NCBI RefSeq assembly: GCF_000023865.1
Contig: NC_013159.1
Location: forward strand, 1,266,001-1,330,000
From: Saccharomonospora viridis DSM 43017
GTDB lineage: Bacteria > Actinomycetota > Actinomycetes > Mycobacteriales > Pseudonocardiaceae
Length of the DNA: 64,000 nt
Direction of reading: 5' to 3'
Both the position numbers and the translations under genes were made by a program. Positions within the stretch are counted from its first letter, which is position 1; the number at the start of each line of letters is the position of its first letter. Under the pieces are notes generated by a model. That model did not search any database. It was not told the DNA's origin and saw only the letters and a program-made list of their open reading frames with translations. Below, one piece after another: positions 2,823 to 39,586 of this stretch.

Positions 2823-3817
2823 CCGAGACCGCCACGAGACGACCACGCCGGCCGCTGCTTCCGACACTCGGGGACGGCACCGGCCCCGTGCTGGCCGTAC
2901 TCGCGGTCGTGTTGGTGGCTTTGGCGTTCGTCGGCCCCGCCTACAGCGAACCGGCGGGGTATCTGGCCCTGCTCAAACGTGCGGCGCCGTTGATGATCCT
3001 CGCCCTCGGCCAGTACTTCGTCATCGTCAGCGGTGGATTCGATCTGTCGGTGGGTTCGTTGGTCACGGCGGAGGTCGTGATAGCGGCGCGGTTACTCGAC
3101 GGGGACGAGGCGGCGACGGCGTGGGTCATCCCGCTGTTGCTGGTCCTCGGGGCGCTGGTGGGGCTCGTCAACGGGCTGGTCACCACACGGCTGTTGGTGC
3201 CGTCGTTCATCGTCACGCTCGGCATGTTGCTCGTGCTCGACGGCGCGGTGTTCCTGTGGACCGGCGGTGCGCCCCAGGGAGCGTTGTCGGAGGCGTTCCG
3301 TGTCGTGGGCCGGGAGGGCTTCGAGATGCCGCTGCTCGGCCAGGTGCCGTGGTCGGTGCTGTTGCTCGCCGTGCTCGTGGTCGCAGCCGTGGTGTTCCTG
3401 CGTGGGGGCACGGGTCGGCTGCTCGTGGCGGTGGGCGACAACGAGACCGCGGTGCGCCTCGGCGGTGGCGGGGTCGAAGGTCTACGCACGCTCGCGTTCG
3501 TGCTGTCGGGGATCTCGGCCGCGATCGCCGCGATCCTGCTCGGCGGGTTCGCCGGAGTGTCCGCACAGGTCGGCGACGGATTGGAGTTCCAGGTCATCAC
3601 GGCCGTCGTCCTGGGCGGGGTGGTGCTCGGCGGGGGTCGGGGCTCCGTCGTCGCAGCGGTGGCGGGCGCGCTCACGCTGGAGGCTTTGTTCTCACTGCTC
3701 AATCTGCTCGGTGTCTCCGGAGGACTGGAGTCCGCCGTGCAGGGGGTCATCATCATCGCCGCCGTGGCGTACGCGGCGGTGGGACGGTCGAAGTTCCGGA
3801 CAAGGAGAACCGCATGA
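2819..3817 (+). CDS. Sugar ABC transporter permease 2 (RbsC-like)
   Basis: 332-residue permease paralogous to the preceding one. It has the signature GQYFVIVSGGFDLSVGSLVT near residues 60-80 and VVLGGVVLGGGRGSV near the C-terminus. The start ATG overlaps the stop of permease 1 (ATGA at 2819-2822), and its own stop overlaps the start of the binding protein in the same way. The N-terminal 20 residues are basic and cytoplasmic, before the first membrane helix. CUT2 transporters often use a single homodimeric permease; two distinct genes are seen in a subset. Confidence 0.92.
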   Translation: MTETATRRPRRPLLPTLGDGTGPVLAVLAVVLVALAFVGPAYSEPAGYLALLKRAAPLMILALGQYFVIVSGGFDLSVGSLVTAEVVIAARLLDGDEAATAWVIPLLLVLGALVGLVNGLVTTRLLVPSFIVTLGMLLVLDGAVFLWTGGAPQGALSEAFRVVGREGFEMPLLGQVPWSVLLLAVLVVAAVVFLRGGTGRLLVAVGDNETAVRLGGGGVEGLRTLAFVLSGISAAIAAILLGGFAGVSAQVGDGLEFQVITAVVLGGVVLGGGRGSVVAAVAGALTLEALFSLLNLLGVSGGLESAVQGVIIIAAVAYAAVGRSKFRTRRTA

Positions 3818-4989
3818 GGAAATCGTGGTTGACCGTCGTCGCCGCGGTGGGGGCGTTGACGCTGGCGAGCTGCACCAGTGATCTACCCGCCGAGAGCGGT
3901 TCGTCGGGGGACGCGCGGCAGCAACCCTCCGAGCAGAACGAATTCTTCGATCAAACCGAGTACGAACGGCAACTCGCGCTCCGTACGGCCACCCCCGAGG
4001 GGCCGGACGACAAACCGTGGGAGCAGGCGCTCGAACCGGACCTGGTCGACACCTCCTCCTACGCCAAGTCCGGGCCGTACCACCTGTGCTTCTCCAACGC
4101 CTCGGTGGACAACCCGTGGCGACAGGTCGGCTGGAAGACCATGCAGGCCGAGGTGGAGTTGCACGATGAGATCGCCGAGTTCACCGTTCTCGACGCCGAG
4201 GCCAAGGACGACAAGCAGATCAGTGACATCGCGTCGTTGCTGTCCCGGGGTTGTGACGCGCTGATCGTCTCGCCGAACACCACGGCGACGTTGACGCCCG
4301 CCGTGGAGCAGGCGTGTGACAGCGGGATCCCGGTGATCGTCTTCGACCGTGGTGTCAACACCGACTGTCCCGTGACGTTCATTCACCCCATCGGGGGGTA
4401 TGCCTTCGGAGCCACGGCCGCGGAATTCCTCGCCGACGAAGTCGGGGAGGGGGGAACGGTGCTGGCCCTGCGGGTGCTCCCCGGAGTCGACGTGCTGGAG
4501 CACCGTTGGGCCGCGGCCGAACGCATCTTCGCCGAACGCGGCGTCGAGGTGGTGGGGGTCGAGTTCACCGAGAACGACACCGCGGGTGCCAAGAGCATCG
4601 TCAGTGACTACCTCCAGCGCGAAGGCCGGATCGACGGCATCTGGATGGACGACGGCACGGCCGCCGTGGCCGTGCTGGAGGCGTTCGAGGATCAAGGCAT
4701 GGAACCGCCCGCCATCTCGGGCGAGGACCAGCAGCAGTTCTTGGAGAAGTGGAGCAAGGAGAACCTGACCGCGCAGGCACCGTCCTATCCGACCTACCAG
4801 TGGCGTACACCCGTGATCGCCGCGTTGCGGGTCCTGTCGGGTGAACAAGTACCACACGAATGGATCCTGCCCCAGCCGGTGGTGACGGCAGAGAATCTCG
4901 ACCAGTACCTCGTCGAAGGCATGCCGCCGTTGCACTACGCGCTGTGCGGCTGCCAGGACATGCCCGACTACCCCCAACGCTGGCAATGA
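3814..4989 (+). CDS. Sugar ABC transporter substrate-binding lipoprotein
   Basis: 391-residue periplasmic-binding-protein-like (type 1, RbsB/ALS-type) lipoprotein. The signal peptide ends in the lipobox L-A-S-C with cysteine at residue 20, so it should be tethered to the outer face of the membrane. An acidic linker follows, then a core with features typical of sugar-binding proteins (a region reading SNASVDNPWRQVGWKTMQAE, and later DAEAKDDKQISDI). Two cysteines near the C-terminus (CGCQD) may form a disulfide. The ATG overlaps the upstream permease stop, with AAGGAG 6 bases before it. It supplies the sugar to the two permeases and the ATPase. Confidence 0.92.
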   Translation: MRKSWLTVVAAVGALTLASCTSDLPAESGSSGDARQQPSEQNEFFDQTEYERQLALRTATPEGPDDKPWEQALEPDLVDTSSYAKSGPYHLCFSNASVDNPWRQVGWKTMQAEVELHDEIAEFTVLDAEAKDDKQISDIASLLSRGCDALIVSPNTTATLTPAVEQACDSGIPVIVFDRGVNTDCPVTFIHPIGGYAFGATAAEFLADEVGEGGTVLALRVLPGVDVLEHRWAAAERIFAERGVEVVGVEFTENDTAGAKSIVSDYLQREGRIDGIWMDDGTAAVAVLEAFEDQGMEPPAISGEDQQQFLEKWSKENLTAQAPSYPTYQWRTPVIAALRVLSGEQVPHEWILPQPVVTAENLDQYLVEGMPPLHYALCGCQDMPDYPQRWQ

Positions 4990-5013
4990 CGGAGCCGACA
5001 GGAGTATCGCCAA

Positions 5014-5880
5014 ATGTCCACTGTGCATCAGGTCGGTGTGAACACGTGGGTCTGGACATCACCGCTGGATGACGCCTGGCTGCGGAAGCTGGTGCCGATC
5101 ATCGCGGCCCGGGGTTTCGACGTCGTCGAACTCCCGGTGGAGAACCCGGGGGACTGGGACCCCCGTGAGGCGAAGCGGCTGCTGGTCGAACACGATCTCG
5201 GGGCGTCGGTGGTGTTGGTCATGCCGCCGGGGCGGGAATTGGTGGACACCGATGCCGCCACGGTCAGCGCCACCCAGGACTACCTACGGCATTGCCTGGA
5301 CATCGCGGCGGAACTCGGTTCCCCCACGTTGTGCGGTCCGGCCTACGCCTCCGTGGGGCGGACGTGGCGGATGACGGAACGGCAGCGAGCCGCGTGCGTC
5401 CGTGAATGGCGGGATCACATCACCCCGGTGCTGGAACACGCCCGGGACGTCGGCGTGACACTCGGGGTCGAACCGCTCAACCGGTACGAGACCAGCCTGT
5501 TCAACACCGTCGAACAGACTCTGCGGGCCCTGGACGGACTGCCTTCCTGCGGTGTCGCGCTCGACCTCTACCACCAGAACATCGAGGAGCGCGACATCGC
5601 CGCGGCGATCCGCGCGGCCCGCAGCCGCGTCGCGCACGTGCAGGTGTGCGCCAACGACCGGGGCACACCCGGTCGTGACCACTTCGACTGGCCCGAATTG
5701 CTGTCCGCGATCGCCGATGCCGGTTACACCGGTCCGTTGTGCATCGAGTCGTTCACCGCGCACAACAGCAGCATCGCCACGGCGGCCTCGATCTGGCGTC
5801 CGCTGGCCACGAGTCAGGACGCACTCGCGGTCGACGGACTGGCCTTCCTGAAGGAGGTGATGGCGGAGGTTCATTACTGA
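5014..5880 (+). CDS. Sugar phosphate isomerase/epimerase family (D-tagatose 3-epimerase-like)
   Basis: 288-residue TIM-barrel enzyme of the xylose isomerase-like (AP endonuclease 2) superfamily. Residues resembling the metal and substrate site of ketose 3-epimerases are visible: GVEPLNRYETS with glutamate near 152, ALDLYHQN with aspartate near 184, HVQVCANDRGTPG near 210 and CIESF with glutamate near 244. The probable reaction is C3 epimerisation of a ketose or a related keto-sugar in the cytoplasm. AGGAG precedes the ATG by 9 bases, and only 24 bases separate it from the binding-protein gene, so it belongs to the transport operon. The exact sugar is unknown. Hydroxypyruvate isomerase or 3-keto-sugar enzymes of the same fold are alternatives. 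Confidence 0.85.
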   Translation: MSTVHQVGVNTWVWTSPLDDAWLRKLVPIIAARGFDVVELPVENPGDWDPREAKRLLVEHDLGASVVLVMPPGRELVDTDAATVSATQDYLRHCLDIAAELGSPTLCGPAYASVGRTWRMTERQRAACVREWRDHITPVLEHARDVGVTLGVEPLNRYETSLFNTVEQTLRALDGLPSCGVALDLYHQNIEERDIAAAIRAARSRVAHVQVCANDRGTPGRDHFDWPELLSAIADAGYTGPLCIESFTAHNSSIATAASIWRPLATSQDALAVDGLAFLKEVMAEVHY

Positions 5881-35650: not shown

Positions 35651-38164
35651 GTGGTGATCAAAGTCGCTGCGGTCGGCGCTCGCGGCGACGCACCGACGCA
35701 CGACTGGCGCTTGGTTCCGGCCGCGGTCACGGTGTGGTCGGGGGCGATCCTCGGATTGCTGTGGGGGTGGTGGGCGAGCGCGTTGTGCGGGGCCGTCGGG
35801 TGCTCGGTCGCGGTCGTGTTGGCGTGGCGGGTTTCGCGTTCAGGCCGTCACGATCACCGCCGTTGGCTTCCCGCAGCGGGCGTGCTCTTCCTCTGTGGAC
35901 TGTTGACCGCATGGCCTGTGGGGGTCCGGTTGTACGACGCGGAGCACGCGGAACTCCGTGGTCTCGCCCGCGCTGGTGAGAAGGTGACGCTGTCAGCGGT
36001 GGTGGTTCAGCGGCCGCGCCCGGTCCATGTCGATGGTTACGCGGGCCGTCCGGGAGGTGCCCGATCGGTACTCGTCCCGGTGGATGCCGTCACGGTGACG
36101 GTGGGGGGTGAACGTGTCGCCGCGCAGCATCGGGTCTTGCTCATCGCGCCGGCGGTTACCTGGAGCGATGTACTGGTGGGGCAGCATGTCACGGTGCGCG
36201 CCGAGCTTGCGCCCGCCCGACCGCACGAGATGACGGTGGCGGTCGGCTTCGTGCGCGGACCGCCCGAGACGGAGCGCGTCGCACCGTGGTGGCAACGGAT
36301 TTCCGAGTCGGTGCGCGCGGCGTTGCGTGCGGCCTGCGAGGTGCTGTCGGAGGAACCGGCGGGCTTGCTCCCCGGGCTGGTGGTGGGGGACACCAGTGAG
36401 CTCTCGAAACGGGTGGAACAGGAGTTCCTCGATGCGGGGCTGTCTCATCTGACCGCCGTTTCAGGGTCCAATGTGGCCATCCTGTGCGGTGCGATCCTCC
36501 TTATGGCCCGAGGATTGCGATGCGGTCCTCGTTCGTCGGCGGTGTCGGCGGCCGCGGCCCTGCTCGGATTCGTCGTTCTCGTGGGCTACGAGCCGAGCGT
36601 GTTACGGGCAGGCGTGATGGGTGCGGTGGGGTTGCTCGCACTCGTGTTGGGACGGCGGGGCTCGGCGTTGCCCGCCCTCGCGGCCGCGGTGTGCGTACTC
36701 GGGCTGTACGACCCCGACATGGCCGTCAGTATGGGCTTCACGTTGTCGGTCGTAGCGACGGCAGGGCTCGTTCTACTCGCTCCGCTCTGGTCACGGGCAT
36801 TGGAGCGTCGGGGAGTACCCGGCGGGATCGCGGACGCGCTGGCCGTGCCCACGGTGGCGTTCTTCGCGACGGCCCCGGTCATAGCGGGGATGGTCGGGGA
36901 GGTGAGCGTGGTCTCCATCGTCGCGAACCTCGCGGCCGCACCCGTCGTCGCACCGATCACCGTTCTCGGAACGGCCGCCGCTGCTCTAGCCCCGCTCTGG
37001 CCCGGTGCGGCCGAAATCGTGGTCCAGGTGGTAGGGCCCGCGGTCAGCTGGCTGATCCTCGTGGCACGCCACGCCGCTTCCGTGCCCGGTGCGGTGATCC
37101 CGTGGCCGTCGGGGTGGTGGGGTGGTGTGTCCGCGGTGTTCGTGATCGTGCTGCTGTGGTGCGGTCTCCGGTTCCGTGGGGTCCGGCTGGCGGTGACGCT
37201 CGCGGTGATCGGCACAACGCTGTTCCTGGTGCCGACCCGTGTGCTCGCGCCCGTGTGGCCACCGAACGGCTGGGTGTTGGTGGCATGTGACGTCGGCCAA
37301 GGTGATGGCCTTGTCCTGGCCACAGGGGAACGGGACCGGGCTGTCGTCGTCGACACCGGTCCGGATCCTGCTGCCTTCGATCGCTGTCTGGACCGGCTCG
37401 GCGTGAATCGAATCCCGTTGGTGGTACTGACCCATCTGCACGCGGACCATGTGGGAGGCCTGTCCGCGGTCTTCGACGGACGCGCTGTCGGCGGGGTGGC
37501 CGTGGGACCGGGGCTGACACCGGAGTGGGCGTGGCGGTCGGTCGTGGACCTCACGGCCGACCGACGAATCCCGCTGGTCCGGCTGACCGCGGGAGACCGG
37601 CTCGTCTGGCGGGACCTGAGGATCGACGTGCTCGCCCCCTCGGTAGGGAATGCCGTGGTTGGTGGGGACACCGACGGCACCGCGATCAACAACACGTCAC
37701 TGGTCCTGCGGGCCACCACGCCGGCAGGGCGCATCTTGCTGACCGGCGACGTGGAATTGTCGGCTCAGGCGGAACTCCTCGCCATGGGAACAGACCTCCG
37801 TGCCGACGTCCTCAAGGTCCCGCATCACGGCAGTCGATACACGCTCGCGGCATTCCTGAAAGCCGTGTCACCGCGTATCGCGATCACCAGTGTCGGGGCT
37901 GACAACACCTATGGTCATCCCAGCCCTCAGACCCATCGGGTGCTCCACGGGTTGGGGACCCTGGTGGTCAGAACCGACACGAGCGGTGATACGGCCGTGG
38001 TGTTGCACGACGATGAACCGGCGGTCGTCCGAAGGGGACCATCGATGCGGCGTCGGCTCAGTCGTCCAGCGCGGCTTGCACGGCCTCCACCGATGGTGGG
38101 ACTGTGGCCTTGGGGCCGACTTGATCGCCGAGAGCGTCGAGTGTCTTCAAACCGTCACCGGTGA
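35651..38164 (+). CDS. comEC: ComEC/Rec2 DNA internalisation protein
   Basis: 837-residue membrane protein. An N-terminal DUF4131 domain with three helices comes first. The competence domain follows, with SHLTAVSGSNVAILCGAIL near 270 and about eight further helices. The C-terminal metallo-beta-lactamase domain has THLHADHVGGL near 595 and VLKVPHHGSRYT near 720. The last 30 residues are basic, overlap the convergent thrC gene by 107 bases and are not family-like. The start is GTG 35651, twelve bases after the comEA stop, without a strong ribosome binding site. It is the predicted membrane channel for single-stranded DNA. Confidence 0.9.
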   Translation: MVIKVAAVGARGDAPTHDWRLVPAAVTVWSGAILGLLWGWWASALCGAVGCSVAVVLAWRVSRSGRHDHRRWLPAAGVLFLCGLLTAWPVGVRLYDAEHAELRGLARAGEKVTLSAVVVQRPRPVHVDGYAGRPGGARSVLVPVDAVTVTVGGERVAAQHRVLLIAPAVTWSDVLVGQHVTVRAELAPARPHEMTVAVGFVRGPPETERVAPWWQRISESVRAALRAACEVLSEEPAGLLPGLVVGDTSELSKRVEQEFLDAGLSHLTAVSGSNVAILCGAILLMARGLRCGPRSSAVSAAAALLGFVVLVGYEPSVLRAGVMGAVGLLALVLGRRGSALPALAAAVCVLGLYDPDMAVSMGFTLSVVATAGLVLLAPLWSRALERRGVPGGIADALAVPTVAFFATAPVIAGMVGEVSVVSIVANLAAAPVVAPITVLGTAAAALAPLWPGAAEIVVQVVGPAVSWLILVARHAASVPGAVIPWPSGWWGGVSAVFVIVLLWCGLRFRGVRLAVTLAVIGTTLFLVPTRVLAPVWPPNGWVLVACDVGQGDGLVLATGERDRAVVVDTGPDPAAFDRCLDRLGVNRIPLVVLTHLHADHVGGLSAVFDGRAVGGVAVGPGLTPEWAWRSVVDLTADRRIPLVRLTAGDRLVWRDLRIDVLAPSVGNAVVGGDTDGTAINNTSLVLRATTPAGRILLTGDVELSAQAELLAMGTDLRADVLKVPHHGSRYTLAAFLKAVSPRIAITSVGADNTYGHPSPQTHRVLHGLGTLVVRTDTSGDTAVVLHDDEPAVVRRGPSMRRRLSRPARLARPPPMVGLWPWGRLDRRERRVSSNRHR

Positions 38165-39320
38165 TCAGCAGGACGGTCTCGGCGTCGGGGTCGAGCCTGC
38201 CGGTCTCGACGAGCTTCTTCGCCGTCGCCACGGTGACGCCTCCGGCCGTCTCGGTGAAGATCCCCTCCGTTCGGGCCAACAGCCGGATCCCCTCCACCAC
38301 TTCCTCGTCGGTGACGTCCTCGATCGCACCACCGGTGCGGCGCACGGTGTCGAGCACGTACGGTCCGTCGGCCGGGTTGCCGATCGCCAACGAGCGGGCG
38401 ATGGTGTCGGGACGCACCGGCTGCACCACATCGTGCCCCCCACGGAACGCCGTGGACACGGGCGAGCATCCGGTGGCCTGCGCGCCGAACACCCGGTACG
38501 GACTCGCCTCCACCAGGCCGAGCTCACCCAGCTCGCGGAAACCTTTGTCCACCTTGGTCAATTGTGAGCCGGAGGCGATGGGAACGACGATCTGTTCGGG
38601 CAACCGCCAGCCGAGCTGTTCGGCGACCTCGAAAGCGAGGGTTTTCGAGCCCTCCGAGTAATAGGGACGGACGTTGACGTTGACGAACGCCCACGTGTCA
38701 TGTTCAGCCGCGAGTTCGGTGGCCAGCCGGTTGACGTCGTCGTAGTTGCCGTCCACGGCGATCAGCACACCGTCGTACACGGCGGTCGTCAACACCTTCG
38801 CCCGCTCCAGGGACGAGGGAATGAGCACCACCGAACGCCACCCCGCCCTGGCGGCGGCAGCGGCGACGGCGTTGGCCAGGTTCCCCGTCGACGGACACGC
38901 GAGTGTGTCGAAACCGAACTCGCGCGCGGCGGCCAGCGCGACGGCGACCACCCGGTCCTTGAACGAATGCGTCGGATTCCCGGTGTCGTCCTTCACCCAC
39001 AGCCGACGTATCCCGAGCGCCTTCGCCAGTCGGTCGGCACGCACCAGCCGCGTGAAACCGGGCTCGGTATTGGGGGTCTCCTCGACATTGGACGGAACGG
39101 GCAGGAGTTTCTTGTACCGCCAGATGTTGCGTGGGCCGGACTCGATGTCCTCCCGGCGGACCCGGCCGAAGTCGTAGGCGACCTCAAGCGGTGAGAAGTC
39201 ATGGGGCGAGACGAACTCGGGGGCCAACGGCTGGCGGTGTCCCTCCTCTTTCGACACCAACTCGACGGCGGGGCCGAGGTCGACGGCGCGGTCGGAGGGC
39301 GTGAATGCAACTGCGGTCAT
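38058..39320 (-). CDS. thrC: Threonine synthase-like PLP enzyme under a SAM riboswitch
   Basis: 420-residue fold-type II PLP enzyme. The PLP lysine is in NPTHSFKDRVV near 115, and ACPSTGNLANAVAAAAARAG, VNVNVRPYYSEGSKT and IASGSQLTKVDKGF are typical of threonine synthases. The N-terminal segment HDFSPLEVAYDFGRV resembles the region that carries a Cys knuckle in plant/archaeal-type ThrC, but the cysteines are absent. The start is ATG 39320 with AAGGA upstream, right after the riboswitch; an earlier in-frame ATG at 39338 lies inside P1. It would convert O-phosphohomoserine to threonine. Control by SAM suggests that it may serve methionine synthesis instead (see findings). It lies between comEC and holA. 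Confidence 0.85.
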   Translation of the reverse strand: MTAVAFTPSDRAVDLGPAVELVSKEEGHRQPLAPEFVSPHDFSPLEVAYDFGRVRREDIESGPRNIWRYKKLLPVPSNVEETPNTEPGFTRLVRADRLAKALGIRRLWVKDDTGNPTHSFKDRVVAVALAAAREFGFDTLACPSTGNLANAVAAAAARAGWRSVVLIPSSLERAKVLTTAVYDGVLIAVDGNYDDVNRLATELAAEHDTWAFVNVNVRPYYSEGSKTLAFEVAEQLGWRLPEQIVVPIASGSQLTKVDKGFRELGELGLVEASPYRVFGAQATGCSPVSTAFRGGHDVVQPVRPDTIARSLAIGNPADGPYVLDTVRRTGGAIEDVTDEEVVEGIRLLARTEGIFTETAGGVTVATAKKLVETGRLDPDAETVLLITGDGLKTLDALGDQVGPKATVPPSVEAVQAALDD

Positions 39321-39332
39321 CGCGAGGTCCTT

Positions 39333-39464
39333 CCTCATCTTCCCCGCTGACGCGGGACGGAATTGGCACCGATGTCGTCAGCTACCTCGCGGAATCCGAG
39401 ATGACAGGCTGACGCCGGTTGCCGGGGCTTCATCGGGCCGGTCCCTCTGCCCCTCTGGATGAGC
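39333..39464 (-). promoter_or_regulatory. SAM-I (S-box) riboswitch upstream of thrC
   Basis: Read on the minus strand, the region carries the S-box core: GAGGGACCGGCCCGATGAAG, then CCCCGGCAACC (39447-39417), and later GGTGCCAATTCC (39370-39359). Helix P1 forms between CTCATC (39463-39458) and GATGAG (39339-39334). P4 is the CCCGC/GCGGG hairpin at about 39355-39342. The 3' side of P1 runs straight into the GGAAGGA ribosome binding site of thrC, so SAM binding should mask translation initiation. There is no separate terminator helix. The class is SAM-I rather than the SAM-IV form often seen in actinobacteria, because the k-turn and GATGAA segments are present. Confidence 0.9.
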
Positions 39465-39586
39465 TATTCAGTTGTGCGATGCGTGCGCCGTGGCGGGCGT
39501 CACGGCATCGGCTCGTAGGCTACAGCAACGGTCTCGAAGCGGGCCACCCGCCATGCGGGGGATGACACCCGTGGCAGGATCGAGGC

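Follow-up and report, generated by a model that had tools for sequence, protein, structure and literature searches.

In Streptomyces, homocysteine is reportedly made from O-phosphohomoserine and a thiocarboxylated carrier protein, MetO, by the enzyme MetM (the pair is said to have been described by Hasebe et al. in 2024), and in S. albulus the carrier gene metO presumably lies downstream of metM. PMC12172450, in the part that concerns these genes, presents Streptomyces MetM as a homocysteine synthase using O-phosphohomoserine, reports that it prevents methionine auxotrophy and places an S-adenosylmethionine (SAM) riboswitch upstream of S. albulus metM; it also describes a MetM homolog in Microcystis that is adjoined by a gene similar to S. 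albulus metO. In S. lividans, a SAM-I riboswitch precedes SLIV_16930-16925, listed as threonine biosynthesis in the relevant part of PMC8079986; these genes are probably the same operon as the metM locus. Here we describe a gene of this kind in a 64,000-nucleotide stretch of the Saccharomonospora viridis DSM 43017 genome (contig NC_013159.1, positions 1,266,001 to 1,330,000; the window, to which coordinates refer unless another contig or locus is named). Judged from its sequence, the gene falls within the clade of MetM, as known from Streptomyces, and its product, annotated as a threonine synthase, is very probably a MetM-type homocysteine enzyme.

The locus resembles Streptomyces MetM/MetO, as far as these are described in PMC12172450, in its enzyme clade, in the SAM-I riboswitch before the gene and in the presence of a separate threonine synthase (ThrC). 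It differs in that S. viridis and its relatives have no metO next to metM, leaving CysO as the closest carrier, in the loss of an N-terminal cysteine knuckle in the S. viridis subclade, and in the metX-metY route that the genome also contains. The enzyme and the riboswitch are of a known kind; what is new is that metO is missing and CysO may be shared, and that a pseudoknot of the PK-2 type may be present. In what follows, the family is the kin group taken as Pseudonocardiaceae; the nearest named loci are from Amycolatopsis, Saccharomonospora and Prauserella, and the row of one genome (G004) is identical to that of Pseudonocardia oroxyli.

The metM-type gene and its leader

The gene and the main elements of its leader are as follows.

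38058-39320, minus strand: metM-type gene (its label would be threonine synthase), 420 amino acids, pyridoxal phosphate (PLP) lysine in NPTHSFKDR, member of the MetM clade
39332-39465, minus strand: SAM-I (S-box) riboswitch aptamer, RF00162, cmscan 79.3 bits (gathering threshold 44.4), E 5.3e-17, full model 1-108
39458-39463, minus strand: 5′ strand of P1, CUCAUC, pairing with GAUGAG
39334-39339, minus strand: 3′ strand of P1, GAUGAG, overlapping the Shine-Dalgarno-like GAGGAAGGA (39328-39336)

Counted from its first ATG, the open reading frame (ORF) runs from 38058 to 39338 on the minus strand and that ATG falls within P1 of the riboswitch; the start common to relatives is the ATG at 39320, which gives the 420-residue product. 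This gene is not the cell's threonine synthase. The genome (one contig of 4,308,349 bases) has a second ThrC, 35% identical to the MetM-type protein, located elsewhere in a hom-thrC-thrB cluster between homoserine dehydrogenase and homoserine kinase, and hom, thrB and the three ThiS-family genes of the genome all lie far outside the window. The MetM-type protein is 75-95% identical to its family orthologs and 57-74% identical to the products of loci that have an adjacent metO. A 52-row tree places the 47 MetM-like rows together in a group (support 100/98) separate from the ThrC rows, and the Pseudonocardiaceae MetM rows form a single clade within it (100/100). The ThrC rows (three PDB ThrC, the ThrC of S. 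viridis and a divergent ThrC-like protein from G010) have long branches that were flagged by the program, and S. albulus MetM itself was left out of the tree. The G010 protein (L076, G010:C2) is 37% identical and sits on a long branch.

The two groups also differ in sequence motifs. NVNVRP[YF]Y.EGSKT is found in 153 of the 178 MetM rows (25 are unmatched by the pattern; the narrower NVNVRPYY.EGSKT matches 152) and P[IV]ASGS in 162; the PDB ThrC chains carry NSVNP.R.EGQKT and PVGNAGNI in their place, and the genome's own ThrC has NSVNPVRLVGQKS at the NSVNP.R.EGQKT position. The PLP lysine motif NPT.SFKDR is retained in 176/178 MetM rows. MetM and ThrC share a common family, this motif and presumably the substrate O-phosphohomoserine, and are set apart by clade, gene context and the SAM control of metM.

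The earlier note on this DNA, made from the letters of the stretch, had pointed to the missing cysteine knuckle of the protein as a possible clue. The S. viridis N terminus indeed has no cysteine, but the absence says nothing about function, being a late loss in one subclade, and we reject it as a functional mark. Outside the family clade, all 60 MetM rows, which come from 56 loci, three further genomes and the second copy of G048, have a CxxC-CxxC pair at the N terminus, against 50/118 family rows; the pair is lost in all 11 sampled rows of one clade (support 100/99) and kept in the 10 other family rows sampled. The knuckle is therefore ancestral by comparison of these sequences and was lost in one subclade. 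Five genomes (G003, G009, G020, G033 and G041) have lost the knuckle and lack MetX, so that knuckle loss need not mean loss of function. Across the subclade the four cysteines, at about 39190-39255 on the minus strand in S. viridis, are replaced by near-constant residues (SKEE, S..D), a pattern suggesting that the knuckle was lost once and the new residues were then strongly conserved. Actinopolyspora keeps one knuckle cysteine.

The distribution of metM suggests that MetM is probably needed for methionine in the family. The gene is present in 119/120 family genomes and all 46 genera; across the phylum, 108 of 296 genomes have it at E 1e-90. MetX was counted by E-value (TIGR01392, E 1e-60), the curated cut-off being passed by no genome, controls included, and was found in 77/120 family genomes; MetA was found in one, which also has MetX. 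At the thresholds used, and with other acyltransferases not searched for, 43/120 family genomes lack both MetX and MetA, and 42 of these 43 carry metM; G087 has none of the three at these thresholds.

The aptamer is the only structured RNA detected in the window by cmscan at the Rfam gathering thresholds, and its alignment to RF00162 includes both the P4 hairpin and the P2 internal loop. P1 is paired in 100% of cells across 67 aligned metM leaders. The distance from the end of the aptamer to the first in-frame start codon is 10-18 bases in 57 of the 59 leaders measured, and no terminator-like site was found in the metM leaders; a terminator switch, for which so short a gap offers little space, was rejected on these two grounds. 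The arrangement is one described in the pertinent part of PMC2258182, where an RBS (ribosome binding site) within the 3′ strand of P1 in SAM-I provides direct control of translation; it is similar in that the 3′ strand of P1 holds the Shine-Dalgarno sequence at this short distance from the start codon, and unlike it in that the metM leader may add a pairing between the P3 loop and the spacer before the AUG.

Scans of more metM loci found SAM-I in 16 of 20 from outside the family and in all 14 others scanned, four of these from family genomes. One of the 14, L075 (G048:C260, a family genome), has a second metM-like gene at 4125-5345, 66% identical, with SAM-I at 3287-3376, about 750 bases upstream; the tree places the gene outside the family clade, and contamination or transfer is possible. 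The only other SAM-I in the S. viridis genome, at contig positions 3521006-3521110 on the minus strand (L016:4507-4611; 60 bits), precedes a metN-like ABC transporter ORF by 189 bases to the first start (TIGR02314 is the best model, below its cut-off), so the SAM-I set of the genome consists of methionine uptake and metM.

Taken together, these observations bear out what the earlier note had proposed: an S-box aptamer whose P1 runs into the RBS, before a ThrC-like gene that has no other threonine-pathway genes beside it and whose product may make homocysteine under SAM control. The aptamer is the RF00162 match, P1 overlaps GAGGAAGGA, the separate hom-thrC-thrB excludes a sole thrC in the genome, and the placement with MetM of metO-bearing loci, the SAM-I of relatives and the 42 family genomes without MetX or MetA fit the proposed role. 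We consider it likely that MetM, a threonine synthase-like PLP enzyme, uses O-phosphohomoserine drawn from the threonine branch and the sulfur of a small thiocarboxylated carrier protein to make homocysteine for methionine, and that this is switched off by SAM. When SAM is plentiful, the aptamer would close P1 and hide the Shine-Dalgarno sequence, and translation would stop. The threonine synthase label then probably hides a methionine enzyme across a family of antibiotic producers, and metabolic models that trust the label would lose methionine synthesis in genomes without MetX or MetA.

Absence of metO and the candidate sulfur carrier

The CysO-CysM-Mec cysteine pathway, in which CysM acts on O-phosphoserine, is best known from mycobacteria. 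S. viridis holds mec-cysO-cysM, with a carrier of the same class as MetO; unlike in the known pathway, CysO is proposed to take part in homocysteine synthesis in this family. Outside Pseudonocardiaceae, a MetO-like ORF follows metM on the same strand, no more than about 210 bases downstream, in 55 of 56 loci (L149-L206 minus L151 and L153), the sole exception being Nakamurella (L150), where there is no adjacent MetO-like ORF. Within the family, no MetO-like ORF is found next to metM in any of the 118 loci (109 distinct proteins), for most of which 1.5-4 kb of downstream DNA was examined, less for a few and 67 bases for L141. A further three genomes from outside the family (G323, G122 and G168), picked on the results of the carrier search, also have no metO adjoining metM. 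The lack of an adjacent carrier gene, remarked on earlier for this locus, is a trait of the whole family, with CysO a likely substitute; a neighbouring metO is the customary setting of metM and not a condition of catalysis.

A genome-wide search for ThiS/MoaD-like genes, as the earlier note had advised, shows that S. viridis encodes three ThiS-family proteins, namely CysO in mec-cysO-cysM, one of the ThiS type and one of the MoaD type (the latter two named from sequence and neighbours), and CysO is 60% identical to a MetO of the g53 genomes. The carrier search was extended to 80 genomes, one for each of the 46 family genera and 34 of 107 other metM-bearing genomes. A close CysO (E 1e-36 or better) is present in 45/46 family genera, one genome each; 25 genera have a single carrier hit and 20 have a second, weaker one. 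In comparison, 8/8 g53 genomes (taken to be Streptomyces) have two close carriers, one beside metM in all eight and the other beside cysM in the five examined. That metO has moved elsewhere as a close copy is unlikely, the S. viridis genome having one carrier of the CysO/MetO class besides the ThiS and MoaD types. For 20/46 genera, the weaker second carrier may conceivably serve instead. These weaker proteins are 33-46% identical to CysO and none is near metM (examples are G039:C41:15784-16059 and G022:C1:1317825-1318094); in the two loci examined (L225 and L226), neither the mec nor the cysM query matched in their surroundings.

CysO is proposed for MetM because it is the closest remaining carrier, and in this family it would most likely be the CysO of mec-cysO-cysM that supplies the sulfur. 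The simplest reading, to which the sequence comparisons lend about even odds, is that CysO serves both cysteine and homocysteine synthesis in the family. Three points weigh against this step: CysO use by MetM is argued by exclusion, no CysO was found in G037 at E 1e-7, and the second carrier-like proteins of the 20 genera offer other candidates. A family that keeps metM but lacks metO beside it provides a clear test case for the interchangeability of sulfur carriers.

Two other explanations of the enzyme have to be weighed. It could be a second threonine synthase, with SAM control merely balancing O-phosphohomoserine between threonine and methionine. The protein scores 280.4 bits against TIGR00260 thrC, above the cut-off of 167.1, so that this model still says threonine synthase, and PMC12172450 reports that the homolog in Microcystis, which shares 51.6% identity with S. 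albulus MetM, produces threonine in vitro and concludes that it does not fully fill the role of MetM in those cells. These points count against the homocysteine role, as do the 4 of 20 further non-family loci in which SAM-I was not found and the contents of the S. viridis genome itself: a search for metB, metX and metY finds a metX-metY pair and a cystathionine gamma-synthase, so MetM would be one of two routes there and not the only possible one. A second threonine synthase is nonetheless improbable, since shut-off by SAM would lower threonine synthesis under ample methionine, the cell has its own ThrC, relatives have metO beside metM, the gene is present in the 42 genomes without MetX or MetA, and the active-site motifs of the two enzymes differ. 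The other explanation concerns the CysO step alone and holds that MetM in Pseudonocardiaceae uses free sulfide with no carrier. PLP enzymes of the MetM fold often accept sulfide, and the family loci uniformly lack an adjacent metO. We regard free sulfide as the less likely option, given that a carrier gene is retained beside metM in nearly all loci of other lineages and that close CysO is retained in nearly all family genera, though CysM alone could explain the latter.

Complementarity between the P3 loop and the start region

In many metM leaders, the P3 loop carries on its 3′ side a motif with 7-10 bp of complementarity to the bases immediately before the AUG. In S. viridis the two strands are as follows.

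39384-39391, minus strand: proposed PK-2-like strand CGCGAGGU on the 3′ side of the extended P3 loop (not significant in a tree-aware test)
39321-39328, minus strand: pre-AUG strand ACCUCGCG between the Shine-Dalgarno sequence and the AUG, with the capacity for 8 bp with 39384-39391 (duplex −13.6 kcal/mol)

A pseudoknot in this position is reminiscent of other members of the SAM clan, and PK-2 is a feature of SAM-I/IV riboswitches. In SAM-IV, one strand of PK-2 lies directly before the 3′ strand of P3 and the other lies 3′ of P1; SAM-IV has PK-1 and PK-2 without P4, and SAM-I/IV lacks PK-1 and has P4 (PMC6890682, which implies PK-2 for SAM-I/IV). The metM leader would be like both in that a P3-loop strand just before the 3′ strand of P3 may pair with a strand 3′ of P1, and differs from them as a SAM-I match that includes P4 and a P2 internal loop. 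In the parts of PMC6890682 that deal with the clan, PK-2 of SAM-IV is presented as new relative to SAM-I, and PK-2 on SAM-I is not among the three architectures compared; likewise, the SAM-I traits given in the corresponding part of PMC7270179 include the absence of an additional pseudoknot. No report of PK-2 on SAM-I was found among the papers listed by the literature searches, a weak statement as the main riboswitch papers lay outside the search.

There are several indications of a non-random match. First, 38/70 leaders beat shuffles of P3, against 4/70 for a control region, and 36/58 leaders are at 0.05 or less in shuffles of the pre-AUG segment (2 of 60 were not parsed); none of the 8 leaders with a P3 shorter than 30 bases beats the P3 shuffles. 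Second, in 36 of the 38 leaders that beat P3 shuffles, the distance from the end of the P3 motif to GGUGCC is 10-15 bases. Third, when the leaders were aligned by MAFFT blind to pairing (67 of the 70; L085, L141 and L157, of 168-182 bases, were excluded by choice), the two strands pair in 84.9% of cells, compared with at most 60.4% when slid against each other. Finally, there are matched variants, including UCGCGAGAUC with GAUCUCGCGA in L071 and CACGAGGCCU with AGGCCUCGUG in L171, as well as L094 with ten pairs, L169 and L170. By position, long matches and these few compensatory variants, a PK-2-like pseudoknot on the SAM-I aptamer next to the start codon is possible.

The same conservation could arise with no pseudoknot, if CCUC is conserved for pairing with the GAGG of the Shine-Dalgarno sequence and GCGAGG for closing an apical P3 stem. 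ACCUCGCG can itself pair by CCUC with GAGG, a local hairpin that can form in 97.3% of cells while showing no covariation above shuffles, and the S. viridis GCGAGGU can pair with AUCUCG inside P3. Simple patterns find both motifs in 40 of the 70 leaders, the pre-AUG motif alone in 15, the P3 motif alone in 4 and neither in 11. A G test that takes the tree into account, run on every column pair against 40 null alignments, finds 0/8 pseudoknot pairs significant (best rank 199 of 10,153), the test having low power, as only columns 158-198 (apparently P4) reached E below 1 (0.425). When the own pre-AUG segment was compared with 61 other distinct segments, it beat at least 95% of them in 10/125 cases (0.05 or less; mean rank 0.42; 31/179 loci were not parsed), a test that is weak because most leaders share the pre-AUG motif. 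In pair counts of the two strands, the number of pair types is not above shuffles (267/500), and 14 of the 17 double-change cells fall at one pair, which also speaks against the pseudoknot. Independent conservation of the two motifs therefore deserves serious, if minority, weight, set against the excess over P3 shuffles, the constant spacing to GGUGCC, the matched variants and the several P3 loops (e.g. L058 and L065, by eye) that have no apical partner for GCGAGG.

Combining the carrier and leader proposals, we tentatively suggest that CysO feeds both CysM and MetM across Pseudonocardiaceae after the loss of metO, with the two sulfur amino acids in competition for this one carrier, and that a PK-2-like clamp lies before the AUG of metM; the conjunction is doubtful at present. 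If real, the pseudoknot would tie SAM-I, SAM-IV and SAM-I/IV together as versions of a single design.

An ORF on the opposite strand at 35651-38164 (plus strand; ComEC-like by eye) shares 107 bases with the 3′ end of metM, as measured from mechanical ORF ends.

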